Below the pieces are notes generated by a model. That model was not told where the DNA came from. It did not search any database and saw nothing but the letters and a program-made list of their open reading frames with translations. Of a stretch of 64,000 nucleotides of DNA, positions 6,301-11,923 are shown piece by piece. Within the stretch, counting starts at the first letter, position 1. Every line of letters begins with the position of its first letter. The stretch comes from Tepidimonas alkaliphilus. GTDB taxonomy: Bacteria > Pseudomonadota > Gammaproteobacteria > Burkholderiales > Burkholderiaceae_C. The DNA lies in NCBI RefSeq assembly GCF_007556595.1, contig NZ_VJNB01000012.1, forward strand, positions 1-64,000, given 5' to 3'. The translations under genes and the position numbers were made by a program.

Positions 6301-6866
6301 GCTTCGCCAAGGTGCGGCTGGCGGACGTGCAGGACAGCCGTGACCCGTTCATCGTCGCCGGCATCGTCGGCGAGCTGCGCATCGTCAACGGCCAGCGCGG
6401 CAAGGTTGCCATCTTCACGCTCGACGACAAGACGGCGGTGCTGGAAGCCAGCGCCGACGAGGCGCTGATCCAGGCGCACCGCGCGCTGCTGAAGGACGAC
6501 GAGCTCGTCATCGCGCAGGTGACGGCACAGCCGGATCGCTTCTCCGGCGGCCTGCGGCTGCGCGTGCAGCAGCTGTGGGACCTGCCGGCGGCGCGCTGCC
6601 GCTTCGGCCAGCACCTGCGCGTCGTGCACGCGGGCGAGGCCGTGCCGGACATCGCCGCCATCGTGCAGGCCCATCCTCCGCGGCGCGTGGTGGCCGAGGA
6701 GGGCGAGTTCACTCGGGGGCTTGCGGTGCGCATCTGGCGCTGGTTACCCACCACGCGCGTCGAGCTGGAGCTCGACGACCGCGCGCGCTTCTACCCGACC
6801 GATGAAGCGCTCGCGGCCTGGCGCGCGCTGGCGCACGAAGGGCGGGTCGAAGTGGTTTACGCCTGA
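3306..6866 (+). CDS. dnaE: DNA polymerase III subunit alpha
   Basis: Catalytic subunit of the replicative polymerase, 1186 residues, full family length. The N-terminal PHP domain starts FVHLRLHSEFSIVDGTT. The palm carries GPGRGSGAGSLVAY and the aspartate motif PDFDIDFCQENRDR at about residues 408-421. RRAMGKKKPEEM and GYGFNKSHAAAYSLLAYHT belong to the fingers region. QAGLFDLLG near residue 945 fits the internal sliding-clamp-binding motif, and an OB-fold region follows near VAGIVGELRIVNG. The gene stands alone on the plus strand and converges on the DUF4338-NurA-HerA cassette, separated by 111 bases with no obvious terminator. Confidence 0.97.
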   Translation: MFVHLRLHSEFSIVDGTTRVDEAVARAAADGQPALALTDLANLFGAIKFYKAARAAGVKPILGAEVWLAGLPGADGAAAPGGALPRVLLLVQSHRGYLNLCELLTRAWTRGVVREQARVQWPWLQELQEGLILLCGAAAGPVGQALLAGDEARAEALARLLAQTFPRRFYLELQRAGRVDDERHVQAAVPLAARLGLPVVATHPIQFLAPQDFDAHEARVCIAEGEILANPRRVRRFTREQYFKSAAEMQALFADVPAALANAVAVAQRCNLTLTLGKPRLPDFPIPPVDGRQLDTEAYFRHVARQGLEERLAQLYPDEAERDRQRPRYLQRLDFELDTIVKMGFPGYFLIVSDFIQWAKTHGCPVGPGRGSGAGSLVAYALKITDLDPLRYNLLFERFLNPERVSMPDFDIDFCQENRDRVIEYVKGKYGRDAVSQIATFGTMAARAAIRDVGRVLDFAYGFCDGISKLVPNKPGLSVTLRYPPNPKPEGDKNHYALEMEPLLAERVQKEEEVRQLIELAQKLEGLTRNVGMHAGGVLIAPGRLTDFCPLYQQPGSDAAVSQYDKDDVEAVGLVKFDFLGLATLTILELAKEFIVARHPDQRDFAFERIPLDDPATFELFQQGRTEAVFQFESRGMQAMLRDARPTRLEDLIALNALYRPGPMDLIPSFIARKHGREPVEYPHPLVEPVLAETYGIMVYQEQVMQVAQVLGGYTLGGADLLRRAMGKKKPEEMAKHRAIFREGAAKNGIDQAKADEIFDLMEKFAGYGFNKSHAAAYSLLAYHTAWLKVHYTAEFFCANMTIEIDDTDKLKVLVDDARTFGIAFEPPDVNTGTWRFEPVDDRRIRYGLGAVKGTGQQAIEAIVAARAGRGAGVRAAKAGPFESLYDFCARVDRGKVNKRTVEALIKAGAFDALEPNRAALLASLDQAFEWAATQEAHAAQAGLFDLLGEASPDASGAEPPLVAAEPWSVRERLAHEKAALGFYLSGHLFDAAEAEVRRFAKVRLADVQDSRDPFIVAGIVGELRIVNGQRGKVAIFTLDDKTAVLEASADEALIQAHRALLKDDELVIAQVTAQPDRFSGGLRLRVQQLWDLPAARCRFGQHLRVVHAGEAVPDIAAIVQAHPPRRVVAEEGEFTRGLAVRIWRWLPTTRVELELDDRARFYPTDEALAAWRALAHEGRVEVVYA

Positions 6867-6977
6867 CCCCCGCCAAGGGCTGACGACACGGTCGGCTCGG
6901 TTTCGCCCCTTTCTACGGCCTGAGTCGTTGGAGCCAATGAACCCAAGGAAGGCGCCGCAGATCGTTTCAGTCTCGCG

Positions 6978-8723
6978 TTACATCAACCCGTTGGCGGCGA
7001 GAAAATCCTCTTTTCGATTGAAGGCGTTGAGAAACAATGGCGTGCCCGAGAATGATAACGGGCTGACCGGGCCGACGGTCATGAAGCTGTATTGTCGGCT
7101 GCTGATGTCAAATGCAGAATGCGGGTCACGAAACAACTGATAAAGATCCAAGGAGGGGCCTGAGGATCCGACCAATTGTCGCAGCGCTTGAAATTCCTGC
7201 CCAAGACCAAGGCCAAAGCCGAAAAAGAAAATACGAAACTGTTGCAGGATTTCTGAATGGAGGCTGGATAGCGTTTGACTGATGAAAAGCCACCCTAATC
7301 CATACTTTCGGGTGGTGCGAACCGCGTCAATAAGCGCCGAACGGACTTGATGCGCCGCCTCGTCTTCGCGCGGCAATTCACGCGGGGCCAGGCGGTGCGC
7401 CTCATCGATCACGACCAAAGTGTTGAGATACTGATCGTTTTTATAAAAATTTTCAGCAATCTGGGTGAGGCCTTCGAGAAGTCGTTTGATCACCAGGGAC
7501 TGAATTCGGTCATTCCATAGAAGGCCTGAGCCTTGTTCTTTGGAAAGATCAATGACCAAGACGGAACGCTGATGATTCTCTGGCGACAGCAGCCACTGTA
7601 AAGCGCGTTCGACGCTGCGGGCCTGGGGGCGATCCTCGCGAAACAGCTCGGCTGCCGGACTCCAGTATTCGCGGTAAAACTCTTCGATATTGGATTCGGC
7701 AATTGCATCTTGAAAGCGGTTCCGACTGGCTTCGCTGCGATAGAAAACCTTTTGAATTTTTTCGTCCTGAAGTAAGTTCCAGGCTTGATCAAACGATGCT
7801 CTTTTATGTAAATCTGTAAGCTTAATCTTGGCTTTTTGCAGCTTCTCGGACAAAATCGAGCAGGCGGCCTCGCGGTTTTCTCCTTTGGGCATCGTGAGGC
7901 GTTCAAAAAACTTGGACTCATAGAGAATTTTTTCAAACAGCTCCCAGCGATCCAATACAAGGTTGCGCACGGTTAACACCACGGGCTTCTTGCCCAACTT
8001 TCTCATGACGTCGCCCAGCGGCAGTGCGAAGGCGCCGCTGCCAGCGCCGGGCTTCATGTCGCGCGCAAATTCGCCTTGCGGATCGATGACCAGCAACGCC
8101 ATTTGAGGATAGCGGGCGTAAGCGGTAAGGATCATTTTGGCCAGAACGGATTTGCCTGATCCGGTTTTGCCAAAAATGCCGATATGGTAGGCTTCGCCTG
8201 CCCCGTCTGGGCCGCGGCCGAAGTGCTTGAACCAGAGCGGTAGTTTGGGGGTCGATCCATACACATGGCCAAGGTAAAAGATTTGGTCTTGATAAGGCTG
8301 CAGCAGCTCTTGGAGCACCTCGTCGGTCACCACATGGATGGTGGTCCCGGTGGACGGCACCGTGCCGAGAATGCTGGGTTCATAATGTTTGACCCCTGCT
8401 TTGAAGACGGCCGATAGCACCATTTGGCCGAGGTGGGTGTCCTGGCGCTCGCTGACCGCTTCGACGCGTCCTCGCTGTCGAACCAAGCTGCGCATGGTGG
8501 GGTCTTCATGCCAGATGTTGCGCAATTGAACTTCCGTGATTTGTCCAAGCGCAAAATGCGGCGCGCCATCTTGAAGAAACTGAAAAATCGCCAGCTCGCC
8601 AACCAGTTTGCGGCCCACAGCGCAGCCCAGCACATCCATGGCCAGATGGGTGGTAGAGGATGGCGAGCCCACTACACCGAGACGTTCGGTTTGGGCCAGC
8701 ATGGTTTCAAGCGTAAGGGGCAT
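6978..8723 (-). CDS. HerA-like hexameric DNA-translocating ATPase (DUF87)
   Basis: A 581-residue ATPase of the HerA/FtsK class. The N-terminal 150 residues fit a HAS-barrel-like region. The P-loop GKTGSGKS is at residues 185-192, LLVIDPQGEF at about 210-219, the Walker B strand LVVIDEAH at 436-443, and TRKYGLGWLFISQ at 471-483 matches the HerA arginine-finger/sensor region. HerA ATPases form ring motors that push DNA into a NurA nuclease. Its ATG touches the TAA of the NurA-like gene with AGGGAGAAAG just before it, so translation is coupled. The sequence is A/T-richer than the surroundings: 7741-7800 has 22 G+C of 60. This suggests recent horizontal transfer. Confidence 0.88.
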   Translation of the reverse strand: MPLTLETMLAQTERLGVVGSPSSTTHLAMDVLGCAVGRKLVGELAIFQFLQDGAPHFALGQITEVQLRNIWHEDPTMRSLVRQRGRVEAVSERQDTHLGQMVLSAVFKAGVKHYEPSILGTVPSTGTTIHVVTDEVLQELLQPYQDQIFYLGHVYGSTPKLPLWFKHFGRGPDGAGEAYHIGIFGKTGSGKSVLAKMILTAYARYPQMALLVIDPQGEFARDMKPGAGSGAFALPLGDVMRKLGKKPVVLTVRNLVLDRWELFEKILYESKFFERLTMPKGENREAACSILSEKLQKAKIKLTDLHKRASFDQAWNLLQDEKIQKVFYRSEASRNRFQDAIAESNIEEFYREYWSPAAELFREDRPQARSVERALQWLLSPENHQRSVLVIDLSKEQGSGLLWNDRIQSLVIKRLLEGLTQIAENFYKNDQYLNTLVVIDEAHRLAPRELPREDEAAHQVRSALIDAVRTTRKYGLGWLFISQTLSSLHSEILQQFRIFFFGFGLGLGQEFQALRQLVGSSGPSLDLYQLFRDPHSAFDISSRQYSFMTVGPVSPLSFSGTPLFLNAFNRKEDFLAANGLM

Positions 8724-9887
8724 TTACTTTCTCCCTGAATCGGAACGATAGCCGTGCATAGCGAAAAAAACTTCCTCGACGTCGCCTTCAAACCGCTCGG
8801 CGATGTGGTGTGTGGCCACCTGTCGAAACGCGGGCAGCGCTTTGGCCAGTGCTTTAACCATGCGGTCGGCCAAAAAATTAGGGTAGGGCTCCAGCATCGC
8901 GGGGGTGGCGCATTGCATATCGAGCCCTTGCACGACTATGGCCATTCGCTCACGCGAGCGAGCCACGCTTTCGGCCACTTCGATGCGCAGGGCGGGCAGC
9001 CAAGTTTGGGGCTTGTAATAAAACACGTGTACCCGGTTGAGGGCTGCCGTCACGTCCTGCGCCAACCGGTCGATCGCGCCGCGCAAAGGCTGCGGCAGGG
9101 CTGCTGTGCTGAAGTGCCATGGCTGCTCCGGCGCTTGGAGCGGTAGCGGACGCGTGAGCTCGCCGGGGTGCAACACGGCGCTGAGCAAGCCGCGGTCGTC
9201 TTGCTGATCGGGCCAGCCAAGGAGTTGACCGATTTCGCGGCGCGTTGAATACTTAGGCATGGCAACGATTTGCTTGTCGTTGCGCGTCAGCGTCAGCAGT
9301 TCACGGTAAGCGTGAAGATATTGCTCGGCTCCTGCCAAAAAGGTTTGCCCGGTGTGGAGCTGCGGCGCGCGTGGAGCGGCGTTGAGCGCCTGATTGAAGT
9401 AAATGATGGGCAGCGTCAACGTGCCGTCCAGCAGCACCAAATCATGGGGAGCGCATCGGGCCAGTTGCAGCTCTTGCCCCAGCATCATGGCGCGCAGGAT
9501 GGTGGCGGTGGCTTCGTGGTGCGGTTCGGCTTGAACGTAAACGTGATGATGCGGCTGGGCCCAATACCGGGTTTCGCTGGGGGGTGTCAGCCCCTCCACC
9601 GCCACGGCAGCGGCGGCCACCAGGTCGGTGGTCAGCAACCGCTCGATCGCATACGAGCCGTCGGTGGCGCAAACGGTCGGAAACGGCGCAGGGCCAAGTT
9701 CAGATCGGTGCCATAACAGCTTGGCTTCACAGAGTTGACGGCGCAACTCGGTGCGCTGTTCCTTGGCACGTGAAAAGGAACCCAGCAAGCCTTGGGCCAC
9801 GTGTGTGGTGCGATTCAGCACCTCCTCGACCAGAGCCGCGGGCAATCCGACGAAAGGACTGGATGGGTTTACGGAGCTGGGTTCCAC
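8724..9887 (-). CDS. NurA-like nuclease, HerA partner
   Basis: About 387 residues. It shows the NurA nuclease motifs in order: ATDGSYAIERL with Asp76, then GQELQLARC with Glu139, then LVLLDGTLTLP with Asp154. These line up with the metal-binding acids known in archaeal NurA. KYSTRREIGQLLG and a C-terminal EPYPNFLADRMVKALAKAL region also fit the family. NurA degrades DNA ends while HerA translocates; here the HerA gene follows with no gap. The start is uncertain. GTG at 9885-9887 is chosen and overlaps the DUF4338 gene by 19 bases. A TTG at 9965 would overlap by 97, and there is no ATG. No strong ribosome site is seen, so translation may depend on coupling. Confidence 0.8.
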   Translation of the reverse strand: MEPSSVNPSSPFVGLPAALVEEVLNRTTHVAQGLLGSFSRAKEQRTELRRQLCEAKLLWHRSELGPAPFPTVCATDGSYAIERLLTTDLVAAAAVAVEGLTPPSETRYWAQPHHHVYVQAEPHHEATATILRAMMLGQELQLARCAPHDLVLLDGTLTLPIIYFNQALNAAPRAPQLHTGQTFLAGAEQYLHAYRELLTLTRNDKQIVAMPKYSTRREIGQLLGWPDQQDDRGLLSAVLHPGELTRPLPLQAPEQPWHFSTAALPQPLRGAIDRLAQDVTAALNRVHVFYYKPQTWLPALRIEVAESVARSRERMAIVVQGLDMQCATPAMLEPYPNFLADRMVKALAKALPAFRQVATHHIAERFEGDVEEVFFAMHGYRSDSGRK

Positions 9888-11002
9888 AGCCGCCAACTTT
9901 CGCGCACAAAACTTCGGTATCGAGGATCGCGTTGCGCTCGCGGTAGCGCCCAACGCTGCTTCCAATACGCAGCCAGCGTGGCAAAGGGGCGGTCGTAATG
10001 CTGAAGCTGTTGTTCCTCCCCACGCAAAAAGGCTTGGGTGTTGGATGCAAGCGGCACGACAAACACCTCGCGGGCAATGCCATGATAAATGAGATCGCGC
10101 GGCAGACCTAGCAACCCCAAAGCTTTGAGCACGACTTCGCGCCGGTTGCGAAAGCCCGTTCCCCAGTGAATGTGCTTGGCTGTGGCGGCGCTTTCTTCGG
10201 CCACCAGCTGCAGCAGATCGTGGTAGGCGCCGTTGATAAAAGGAAAATCGCCTGAGCCGCGGGTGTAACCCGCCGAATGAAAAAGCCGCTGGCCTTGAAA
10301 AGTCAGCCGGTTGTAAATTGACGACCGCCCCAGCGCCGAGGTGGTGGTGATCAGCGCCAGCGGCCCGGTTTGACGGTTGGCGATCAGCGTGATGCGCTGG
10401 GCGTAGCGGCGCTCAAACGCGTGACGCACTTCGTTGCTGGCGGCTGCCAGCGCCGCCAATTTGCCGCCGAGCAAATGGGTGTAGGGCGGCACGGCGCCCA
10501 GCACGAAAGCGTCCATGACGTTGCCCAGACGTGCGCGGCGCTGCGGCGTTGTCCATCCGATCCAGGCGTCGCGGCTGCCCAGCGCAAAGACGGGATCGGC
10601 CAAACCCAAAATGCCCATCAGCCGGTCGTGCCCGTCGTCCCAGATCAAAAAGCGCAGGCGCCTTCCGTACCCCGCCGAAACCGGAATGCTCCAGTGCAGC
10701 CGGGCGTAACGAAAGAGTTGTTCGTGCGACGTCTGGGGCTGGACTTCGATGAGGCGCGGCGCGATGCGGGCAGGGTCGATCTCGGCGCCGTTGGCAATGT
10801 GCGCCAGCAGTTGCGGCTCGTGACGCTCCAAAGCCTTGCGGGCGCGCTCGATTTGGTGCTGGCACGCCAGCTGGTGAAAGGCGCGCAGTTGCGCTTTGTT
10901 GCGCACCGAGCCGCTCCATCGCAGCCGCCCGTCCTGCAACGAAAAACCTTGTTCATGCAACTGGGCAAGCACCCGCTGGCGCAAGGCGTGGCGATCGATC
11001 AT
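9869..11002 (-). CDS. DUF4338 (DruA-like) domain protein
   Basis: A 377-residue protein that I recognise as DUF4338, the family of DruA from the Druantia anti-phage system. Diagnostic segments are RFLIWDDGHDRLMGILGLAD (about 117-136) with RDAWIGW (144-150), VMDAFVLGAVPPYTHLLGGK (162-181), TSALGRSSIYNRL (221-233), and REVFVVPLASNTQAFLRG near 311-328. The molecular activity of the family is not known to me. It is the first gene of the three-gene operon with NurA and HerA. None of the other Druantia genes, including the large DruE helicase, is present. The ATG at 11000-11002 lies 36 bases after the tolA stop on the same strand. Confidence 0.85.
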   Translation of the reverse strand: MIDRHALRQRVLAQLHEQGFSLQDGRLRWSGSVRNKAQLRAFHQLACQHQIERARKALERHEPQLLAHIANGAEIDPARIAPRLIEVQPQTSHEQLFRYARLHWSIPVSAGYGRRLRFLIWDDGHDRLMGILGLADPVFALGSRDAWIGWTTPQRRARLGNVMDAFVLGAVPPYTHLLGGKLAALAAASNEVRHAFERRYAQRITLIANRQTGPLALITTTSALGRSSIYNRLTFQGQRLFHSAGYTRGSGDFPFINGAYHDLLQLVAEESAATAKHIHWGTGFRNRREVVLKALGLLGLPRDLIYHGIAREVFVVPLASNTQAFLRGEEQQLQHYDRPFATLAAYWKQRWALPRAQRDPRYRSFVRESWRLWNPAP

Positions 11003-11033
11003 GAAGTTGTTCGGGATGCAGAGCGTGGGTGCA

Positions 11034-11060
11034 GACCCCTATTCCTGGGGTCGAAACCCC
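11034..11060 (-). other. Two overlapping, mutually exclusive stem-loops at the tolA stop
   Basis: GACCCC at 11034-11039 pairs with GGGGTC at 11047-11052, while the same GGGG at 11047-11050 can instead pair with CCCC at 11057-11060. The tolA stop codon is in the loop of the first hairpin. The DUF4338 start is 32 bases further on. There is no T-run after either stem, so a simple intrinsic terminator is unlikely. A regulatory or processing role at the tolA/cassette boundary is possible. Confidence 0.4.
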
Positions 11061-11923
11061 AAAATCAACGTGCTGGGCACGCGGCCGTTCTCGTCGCGCG
11101 GCAGGCGGCCGGTGCGCTCGATCGCGCGCAGCACGGCGTCGTCCCAGGCCCGGTGGCCGCTGCTGCGCAGCAGGCGGCTGCTTAGAATCGTGCCGTCCGG
11201 CAGTGTGCGCACCTCCACCTCCGCGCGCGGGTTGCCAGGCACGCTGTCGGTGAAGATGATGTTGGGCCGGATCGCGGCCACCACCCGCCCGGCGTAGCTG
11301 GCCGACGGACCCGCATCGTGCGCGTCGGCGCCGCGCGCCTGCGTGCCGCCACTGGCGGCGGCCTGACCGAGGATGCGCTCCAGGTTGCGTCGGCGCTCGG
11401 CCTCCAGTTGCGCTTGCAGCTCGCGCTCGCGCTGTTGCGCTTCGCGGGCGGCTTTTTCGCGCGCGGCCTGTTCCCGGGCGGCATGCTCGCGCGCCTGGCG
11501 CTCGCGCTCAGCTTGCAGCCGGGCTTGGCGCTCCTGCTCGGCCTTTTGGCGCTCGGCGCGTTCCTGCGCCAGCCGACGCGCTTCTTCTTCGCGGCGACGC
11601 TGCTCCTCGCGCTGGCGCTGCACAGCAATGTCAGCAGGCCGTGCTTGCGTTGCTGCGGGCGGGGGTGGGGCGAGGCGCGGCGACGTCGGCGGGATGGGCG
11701 CAGGTGGATCCGGCGGCGGCTCCGCGGCGCGCGGCGCAGCCACCTTCGGCACGCTGGCCCACAGCTCGGCGCTGGCCACCACCGGCACGTCGTGCTGCCA
11801 CCCGATGCCCCAGGCCAGCGCAGCGATCAGCAGGGCGTGCGCGCCCAACGCCAGCAGCCAGGCGCGCGCGTCCCAGCGCGGCGGCGGGGGGGTGAAGTCC
11901 TGCTCGTCGGCGGTGGCGTGCAT
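11039..11923 (-). CDS. tolA: Tol system envelope protein TolA
   Basis: A 294-residue inner-membrane protein that links the TolQ-TolR motor to the outer membrane. A single transmembrane segment (AWLLALGAHALLIAALAWGI) near residues 21-40 is followed by a proline-rich stretch. A long Glu/Arg/Ala coiled helix runs from about 100 to 190, and the C-terminal globular TonB-like domain carries YAGRVVAAIRPNI and LRSSGHRAWDDAVLRAI. It is the fourth gene of ybgC-tolQ-tolR-tolA, 18 bases after tolR. The expected next genes, tolB and pal, are replaced here by the DUF4338-NurA-HerA cassette. Confidence 0.92.
   Translation of the reverse strand: MHATADEQDFTPPPPRWDARAWLLALGAHALLIAALAWGIGWQHDVPVVASAELWASVPKVAAPRAAEPPPDPPAPIPPTSPRLAPPPPAATQARPADIAVQRQREEQRRREEEARRLAQERAERQKAEQERQARLQAERERQAREHAAREQAAREKAAREAQQRERELQAQLEAERRRNLERILGQAAASGGTQARGADAHDAGPSASYAGRVVAAIRPNIIFTDSVPGNPRAEVEVRTLPDGTILSSRLLRSSGHRAWDDAVLRAIERTGRLPRDENGRVPSTLILGFRPQE

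Follow-up and report, generated by a model that had tools for sequence, protein, structure and literature searches.

Three genes on the minus strand of a 64,000-nucleotide stretch of the Tepidimonas alkaliphilus genome (positions 1 to 64,000 of contig NZ_VJNB01000012.1, hereafter the window) encode, at positions 6978-11002, a DruA (DUF4338) protein, a NurA-type nuclease and a HerA-type motor ATPase, and the same three families are found together in bacteria and archaea far beyond chance. We interpret this group as a horizontally moving defence cassette in which HerA-NurA would degrade DNA and DruA would exert self/non-self control, preferably by modifying the DNA of the host, a reading to which we assign a probability somewhat below one half (about 0.45). 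The original prediction for this locus knew of no described system joining all three components. None turned up in the open-licence literature, where no work joining DruA or Druantia with NurA-HerA was among the matches listed; this is no proof, and we regard the cassette as probably undescribed so far in that literature. In the accessible part of one paper, NurA and HerA appear in the legend of a figure about putative CRISPR auxiliary genes (PMC10910872), and DruA, DUF4338, HerA and NurA are absent as whole words from the accessible part of another (PMC12458937). Machines that pair HerA with a nuclease form an expanding group of anti-phage systems, and a small cassette of 4.2 kb, present across bacteria and archaea, puts DruA, whose role in Druantia I is to our knowledge unexplained, in a simple, testable three-gene setting.

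Conservation and co-diversification of the three genes

Alignment with HerA succeeded in drawing 76 loci from 84,980 species genomes, where a scan of genome contigs with NurA alone returned no relatives. Some of these loci are near-copies (L093/L095, L061/L088), and L079, L100, L103 and L105 are contigs of four genomes that also stand in the class sample described below (G316, G282, G141 and G279, respectively). Profile searches detected NurA in 71 of the 76 loci and DruA in 64. Among the 53 with room for the whole group, taken as 3 kb or more ahead of HerA and 1.5 kb or more behind it, both genes accompany HerA in 49, a grouping that bears out the original prediction where it looked to the same gene order in other genomes. 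DruA lies upstream in 38 of the 53, downstream of HerA and co-oriented with it in eight (six cyanobacteria, a Thermoplasmata archaeon and a member of the Bacillota), and downstream in the opposed direction in three; NurA stands without DruA in three more (L063, L066 and L073, the first and last from metagenome-assembled genomes), and one locus (L090) has neither. Eight of the remaining 23 loci, which are cut by contig ends, are without DruA, among them L072, in whose genome a DruA occurs on a different contig, 512 bases from its start. One of the six cyanobacterial loci is degraded (L115, Argonema antarcticum): a single frame at 8944-10593 joins a HerA match running to about residue 273 with a DruA match from about residue 95. 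Because only the N-terminal part of HerA and the C-terminal part of DruA remain, we read it as an internal deletion and reject it as a functional fusion that would prove contact between the two proteins.

When 274 genomes of the class were searched with HerA, the host's own gene was returned along with five strong matches (E <= 9e-84) and short weak ones in three genomes; four of the five strong loci are complete, all in the order DruA-NurA-HerA, and in the other (G304) HerA starts at the contig edge. DruA was also searched on its own, since this avoids choosing loci on HerA, in two samples that both count the host genome. Pfam matches to DruA occur in 16 of the class genomes; six matches are full-length and above 200 bits, of which five adjoin NurA-HerA and one (G254) lies in a Druantia I-like locus. 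The other ten genomes hold weaker or partial matches, up to six per genome, to other kinds of DUF4338 protein, and none of these ten is among the class HerA matches. Across 398 genomes of the phylum, the DruA profile at E <= 1e-40 gave four matches: the host's own and those in G608 and G582 adjoin NurA and HerA, and that in G719 lies in a Druantia I-like locus. The NurA match in G582 is weak (3.1e-27), and the DruA match in G608 was flagged with one TGA, its stop-free frame scoring 5e-151. Full-length DruA is seen in these two genome samples in two settings, with no orphan.

The three proteins have also diversified together. Over 52 loci the Mantel correlation was 0.75 for DruA-NurA, 0.71 for DruA-HerA and 0.94 for NurA-HerA, none of 2000 permutations reaching values as high; DruA has perhaps been exchanged more than the NurA-HerA pair. 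These 52 complete sets carry 20 phylum labels, in bacteria and archaea, and HerA identity reaches 78% in a locus of another phylum (L043). A tree was built of 56 DruA proteins, 52 from cassettes and four Druantia I-like; the latter form one side of a branch with support 98/96, and some supported sisters come from different phyla, for example L065 (Acidobacteriota) and L081 (Nitrospirota); the nearest relatives of the window DruA are those of Methylococcus capsulatus and Tepidiphilus olei. The L065 locus, from Pyrinomonas methylaliphatogenes, also holds a second, truncated HerA fragment (10783-11268) directly downstream of the intact gene, which by eye is nearer the L034 type, as though a second cassette had taken the place of a first.

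Motor and nuclease

Pfam profile searches assign all three proteins to the families originally proposed; PADLOC likewise recognizes DruA (as DruA1) and HerA, and gives nothing for NurA at E <= 1. NurA matches PF09376 (E = 8e-7, 29.2 bits against a cut-off of 21), and HerA matches the central domain PF01935 (DUF87; E = 2e-13) as well as the PADLOC HerA model (E = 9.2e-16); no NCBIfam model comes near its own cut-off with HerA, and none is found for DruA or NurA at E <= 1. Conservation was counted over the 52 loci with full-length genes, the window included and L115 and incomplete loci left out. NurA Asp76, Glu139 and Asp154 are each present in 52 of 52 orthologues, as are HerA G185, G188, S189, G190, K191, D440, E441 and A442; T187 is kept in 46, S192 in 44 (Thr in the other eight) and H443 in 49, in a HerA count that left out K186 and 436-439. 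The Walker motifs and nuclease acids to which attention had been drawn at the outset are thereby confirmed in their catalytic residues (K191, D440 and E441; D76, E139 and D154).

The predicted NurA model (predicted local distance difference test, pLDDT, 94) finds its best solved match in Thermococcus kodakarensis NurA (9x1m_G; Z 22.1, root-mean-square deviation (rmsd) 3.7, 308 residues aligned), and also aligns with NurA of S. solfataricus (2ygk_A; Z 21.8, rmsd 4.0, 299 aligned) and chain G of TdpAB (8wfd_G; Z 13.9, rmsd 6.7, 280 aligned); D76-G77 falls on the DG motif of 3tai. The HerA profile matches solved HerA-type proteins that include 8wiv, 9c1m, TdpA (8wet), 8xau and 4d2i. In archaea and Deinococcus the role of HerA-NurA in end resection is established (PMC9960219, accessible part), and for relatives a motor ring that threads DNA into the nuclease has been reported (accessible parts of PMC9960219 and, on DUF4297-HerA, PMC11291478).

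The predicted fold of DruA

DruA matches PF14236 at E = 2.7e-104 and PADLOC DruA1 at E = 3.9e-106, and it is the only DruA match in the host genome. The accessible part of PMC10853773 describes the domain annotated DUF4338 as a GCN5-like acetyltransferase (GNAT), and reports DUF4338-annotated GNAT domains fused to some DndF proteins, where they are read as possible effectors. In agreement with a GNAT assignment, the AlphaFold model of the window DruA (pLDDT 91, predicted template modelling score 0.90) is predicted to adopt a GNAT-like fold over residues about 77-339. Structural alignment places phage Mu Mom (8bv8) first, though tied (Z 10.0, rmsd 4.2, 184 residues aligned of 222), followed by GNAT acetyltransferases (Z 9.5-8.7, 133-173 residues aligned); the matches listed, at Z 8.7-10, comprise Mom, acetyltransferases and one 90S pre-ribosome chain, and the families missing from them are no evidence either way. 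Foldseek against the PDB forms the weaker side of the assignment, with nothing at E <= 0.001, an axonemal chain in the top row (E 0.014) and mostly acetyltransferases in the remaining rows. Residues conserved in at least 50 of the 52 loci cluster in two places by our own placing on the model: P173, Y174, G180 and K181 would come after the strand leading into the GNAT coenzyme A loop, and T220, A223, G225, S227, Y230 and R232 after the next strand. The invariant residues of DruA include R114, D122, K181, Y230 and R232.

In a viral structure library the DruA model matches giant-virus proteins (BFVD A0A3G4ZXG3, the best, at E 1.1e-16, and A0A5K0UAJ3 at 7.7e-14) and a phage fragment (E 7.1e-8). 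A DUF4338 gene at E <= 0.001 was found in one of 50,697 phage records, none of which matches this HerA or NurA; the three IMG/VR viral contigs found with HerA all carry the three genes.

Insertion site and neighbouring genes

The cassette occupies 4.2 kb of inserted DNA, flanked by dnaE on one side and a tolA/tonB-like gene on the other (Table 1). With two genus-mates (G008, locus L040, and G009, locus L041), homology stops at 6861, the end of dnaE, and restarts at 11048, the end of the tolA/tonB-like gene. The site is nearly empty in G008, with 85 bases between the flanks, and in G009 it holds 752 bases (6588-7339) with a different two-gene insert, by eye a toxin-antitoxin pair (an antitoxin and a PIN-type toxin); because G009 carries this other insert, the site may serve as a small hotspot of integration. 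Only the host itself, among the 100 nearest genomes, has a NurA relative. The inserted DNA has room for three genes only, and therefore contains no integrase or transposase; no clear target-site duplication was found, apart from an 8-base match close to the edges that may be fortuitous. GC content at third codon positions (GC3) is 0.61-0.73 in the three cassette genes versus 0.93 in dnaE and 0.85 in the tolA-like gene. The operon structure first proposed stands in its coordinates and junctions: all three open reading frames were confirmed, druA and nurA overlap by 19 bases (9869-9887), and the nurA TAA directly abuts the herA ATG. An alternative TTG start of the nurA frame is possible at 9965.

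Table 1. Features of the cassette in the window
Feature	Positions	Strand	Description
druA	9869..11002	-	DUF4338/PF14236 protein, 377 aa, ATG start
nurA	8724..9887	-	RNase H-like nuclease, 387 aa from GTG start
herA	6978..8723	-	HerA/FtsK-type motor ATPase, 581 aa; Walker A 185-192, DEAH 440-443
Inserted DNA limits	6862..11047		4186 bases, as judged from the ends of homology to two genus-mates

Eight neighbours in the window are dnaE, a TonB/TolA-like gene, an ExbB-like gene, three riboflavin genes, pilY1 and a gene for a pilin-type protein. For other loci, 140 neighbouring proteins of 150-900 aa were assembled and 129 of them scanned; all four of L105 are among the 11 omitted, so that 38 of 39 loci are represented. 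As a control, 129 proteins were drawn at random from 148 of the same size limit in arbitrary regions of class genomes. At 1e-10, 242 PADLOC families match the neighbours versus 73 for the control, counting families and not proteins. The top families among the neighbours are methyltransferases, with up to eight members each; in the control no family has more than two members, and no methyltransferase appears among the best 25 of its 73 families. By Pfam, eight of the 129 neighbours are N6/N4 DNA methylases. A DNA methyltransferase as a constant fourth member of the cassette found no support: the relatives of one of these genes are scattered at varied distances, in a few loci only. Enrichment in defence islands, which the original prediction had raised, is only weakly supported: the flanks of other loci are richer in PADLOC families than the control, but the window's own neighbours resemble housekeeping or pilus genes.

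Comparison with known systems

With type I Druantia the cassette shares the DruA family, the window protein being 36-38% identical to DruA of four loci (L177-L180) that also hold a DruE-like DEAD/DEAH helicase and that we take to be type I from gene order. It differs in having HerA as its motor and NurA as its nuclease, and in forming an insertion without other genes. Neither the window nor any of the 76 loci yielded a homologue to tblastn queries (E <= 1e-4) with DruB, DruC and DruE from L179 and L180, although very diverged DruB or DruC may escape this search, the L179 and L180 versions missing each other too. The MZB domain, which is part of DruE, is also absent from the host genome. Since the 76 loci have no homologue of these DruB, DruC or DruE queries, and the host no MZB domain, we rejected the cassette as a piece of Druantia.

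The HerA-NurA pairs of archaea and Deinococcus have in common with the cassette the NurA fold with its DG motif, the HerA Walker motifs and the adjacency of the two genes. The cassette pair, in contrast, is diverged, has DruA beside it in 49 of the 53 loci with room, and is an accessory trait spread over many phyla. A possible further parallel is the Tdp system, in which DNA modification goes together with a motor of HerA-like type and its nuclease-like partner, and TdpC, the DNA-modifying partner of TdpAB, makes phosphorothioate. TdpAB has a HerA-like motor (8wet_A, profile E 1.7e-9) and a subunit resembling NurA (8wfd_G, presumably TdpB, the smaller of the two), but the cassette NurA is nearer to true NurA (Z 22) than to that chain (Z 13.9), and the third gene of the cassette is druA. 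SIR2-HerA is another HerA defence system, which like DUF4297-HerA combines the motor with an effector enzyme; the cassette differs from both in its effector, NurA (RNase H-like), and in its third gene, and Pfam and PADLOC at E <= 1 place DruA and NurA in no families other than their own, with no DUF4297 or SIR2 effector found. DUF4297-HerA is described as anti-phage in the accessible part of PMC11291478. Phage Mu Mom resembles DruA in its GNAT-like fold (Z 10.0 over 184 residues), but as a match Mom is tied with other GNATs, and sequence and profile comparison brought out no significant kinship between DruA and Mom; Pfam at E <= 10 returns only the DruA family for DruA, and not the Mom family PF25680.

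Proposed mechanism and alternative explanations

In the mechanism that we propose, the HerA ring motor would thread DNA into NurA, which would shred what it is fed, as homology to solved HerA-NurA and TdpAB suggests; this motor-nuclease part appears to us the safest. The products would presumably form a complex, degrade DNA in the cell and act in defence. DruA, with its predicted GNAT fold, would give HerA-NurA self/non-self control: in the version that we prefer it would chemically modify host DNA, as Mom does that of phage Mu, and HerA-NurA would attack unmodified DNA only, a restriction-modification logic like that of Tdp. The modification of DNA by DruA is the least certain step. The original prediction had DruA recognize or mark foreign DNA; the one hint that bears on this, the GNAT-like fold with Mom first (tied), would favour the marking of self DNA over foreign DNA, and proves neither. 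Both this hint and the Tdp system fit a modifier; within the defence reading we consider DruA somewhat likelier, by a narrow margin, to be a modifier than a sensor or activator. That the cassette represents a new class of restriction-modification, with DruA as a Mom-like enzyme of acyltransferase fold placing a new modification on host DNA and HerA-NurA destroying DNA without it, we consider unlikely; if true, DruA would modify DNA in Druantia I too. Modification of DNA by DruA would add an acyl-type modification to restriction systems.

Several observations weigh against a defence cassette with DruA as the modifier. NurA-HerA without DruA in L063, L066 and L073 argues against DruA as an obligatory antidote, and neither these three genomes nor that of L090 shows a DruA at E <= 0.001. 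DruA tracks NurA-HerA less tightly than NurA and HerA track each other. The lead of Mom over ordinary GNATs is only 0.5 Z, which counts as a tie under the rule of the tool, and the comparison of DruA and Mom profiles is not significant (hhalign probability 1.7, E 0.03). DruA also serves Druantia I, a system in which we know of no DNA modification. The low GC3 of the cassette is not decisive alone, because that of pilY1 in the window is equally low (0.72). A Pfam scan of the eight window neighbours revealed no other defence gene, and the comparison of flanks set a control from one class against loci from many phyla, with Pfam run on the test set only.

Some of these points sit more easily with a defence system in which DruA is a sensor or licensing factor that would turn HerA-NurA on, as a recruiter and not an antidote, by binding invader DNA or by acylating HerA, NurA or a phage protein. 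The DruA-less NurA-HerA loci would be easier to explain, generic GNAT acetyltransferases match the DruA model as well as Mom does, DruA also occurs with a different motor, a DEAD/DEAH helicase, and the DUF4338 GNAT domains of some DndF proteins are possible effectors (PMC10853773, accessible part). Yet Mom, the tied leader among the fold matches, modifies DNA, and the protein target is purely hypothetical; we regard a sensor or licensing role as possible, if on balance doubtful.

The two remaining explanations dispense with defence as the primary function. A DNA-repair or end-resection module like that of archaea, with DruA as an accessory, draws on the established role of HerA-NurA in archaea and Deinococcus (PMC9960219, accessible part) and on the Z of 22.1 between the NurA model and the T. 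kodakarensis protein, but we judge it improbable in view of the patchy spread of the cassette, with its closely similar HerA in another phylum, the lack of NurA in the other 99 of the 100 nearest genomes, an insertion site left almost vacant by one genus-mate and differently filled in another, and the absence of Mre11 and Rad50 among the eight window flank proteins scanned. It is less probable still that the genes are cargo or part of a mobile element and serve its own maintenance, such as the stability of a plasmid or integrated element, with defence as a by-product. Related HerA and NurA on large plasmids, with no DruA in the stretch examined, and the three IMG/VR contigs would agree with such a role; an insertion devoid of integrase and transposase, the want of a clear target-site duplication at its edges and the 50,697 phage records free of HerA and NurA matches speak against it.

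Other settings of NurA-HerA and DruA

The plasmids in question are those of Rhizobium (L013), Natribaculum (L014), Corynebacterium (L015), Euzebya (L016) and Rhodococcus (L017). Elsewhere on the Natribaculum plasmid lies a DruA-like gene, and in L015 and L017 about 2.5 kb separate HerA from NurA, with an SMC ATPase nearby. A Rhizobium gene beside NurA (L013, 9737-10897) was tested as a diverged DruA and found unsupported. Genes for GHKL-type ATPases (HATPase_c_3) occur near DruA-less NurA-HerA in L066 (3753-7501) and L013 (13931-15964); that of L066 is accompanied by a DNA methylase, with a type I restriction-modification set on the other side.

Long proteins with a DruA domain were seen in a haloarchaeal plasmid (L181, 3666-5783, 705 aa), with an FtsK translocase and a DEAD helicase close by, and in Roseivivax (L182, 2756-4744, 662 aa), adjoining an ATP-binding protein; they are perhaps further DruA-based systems.

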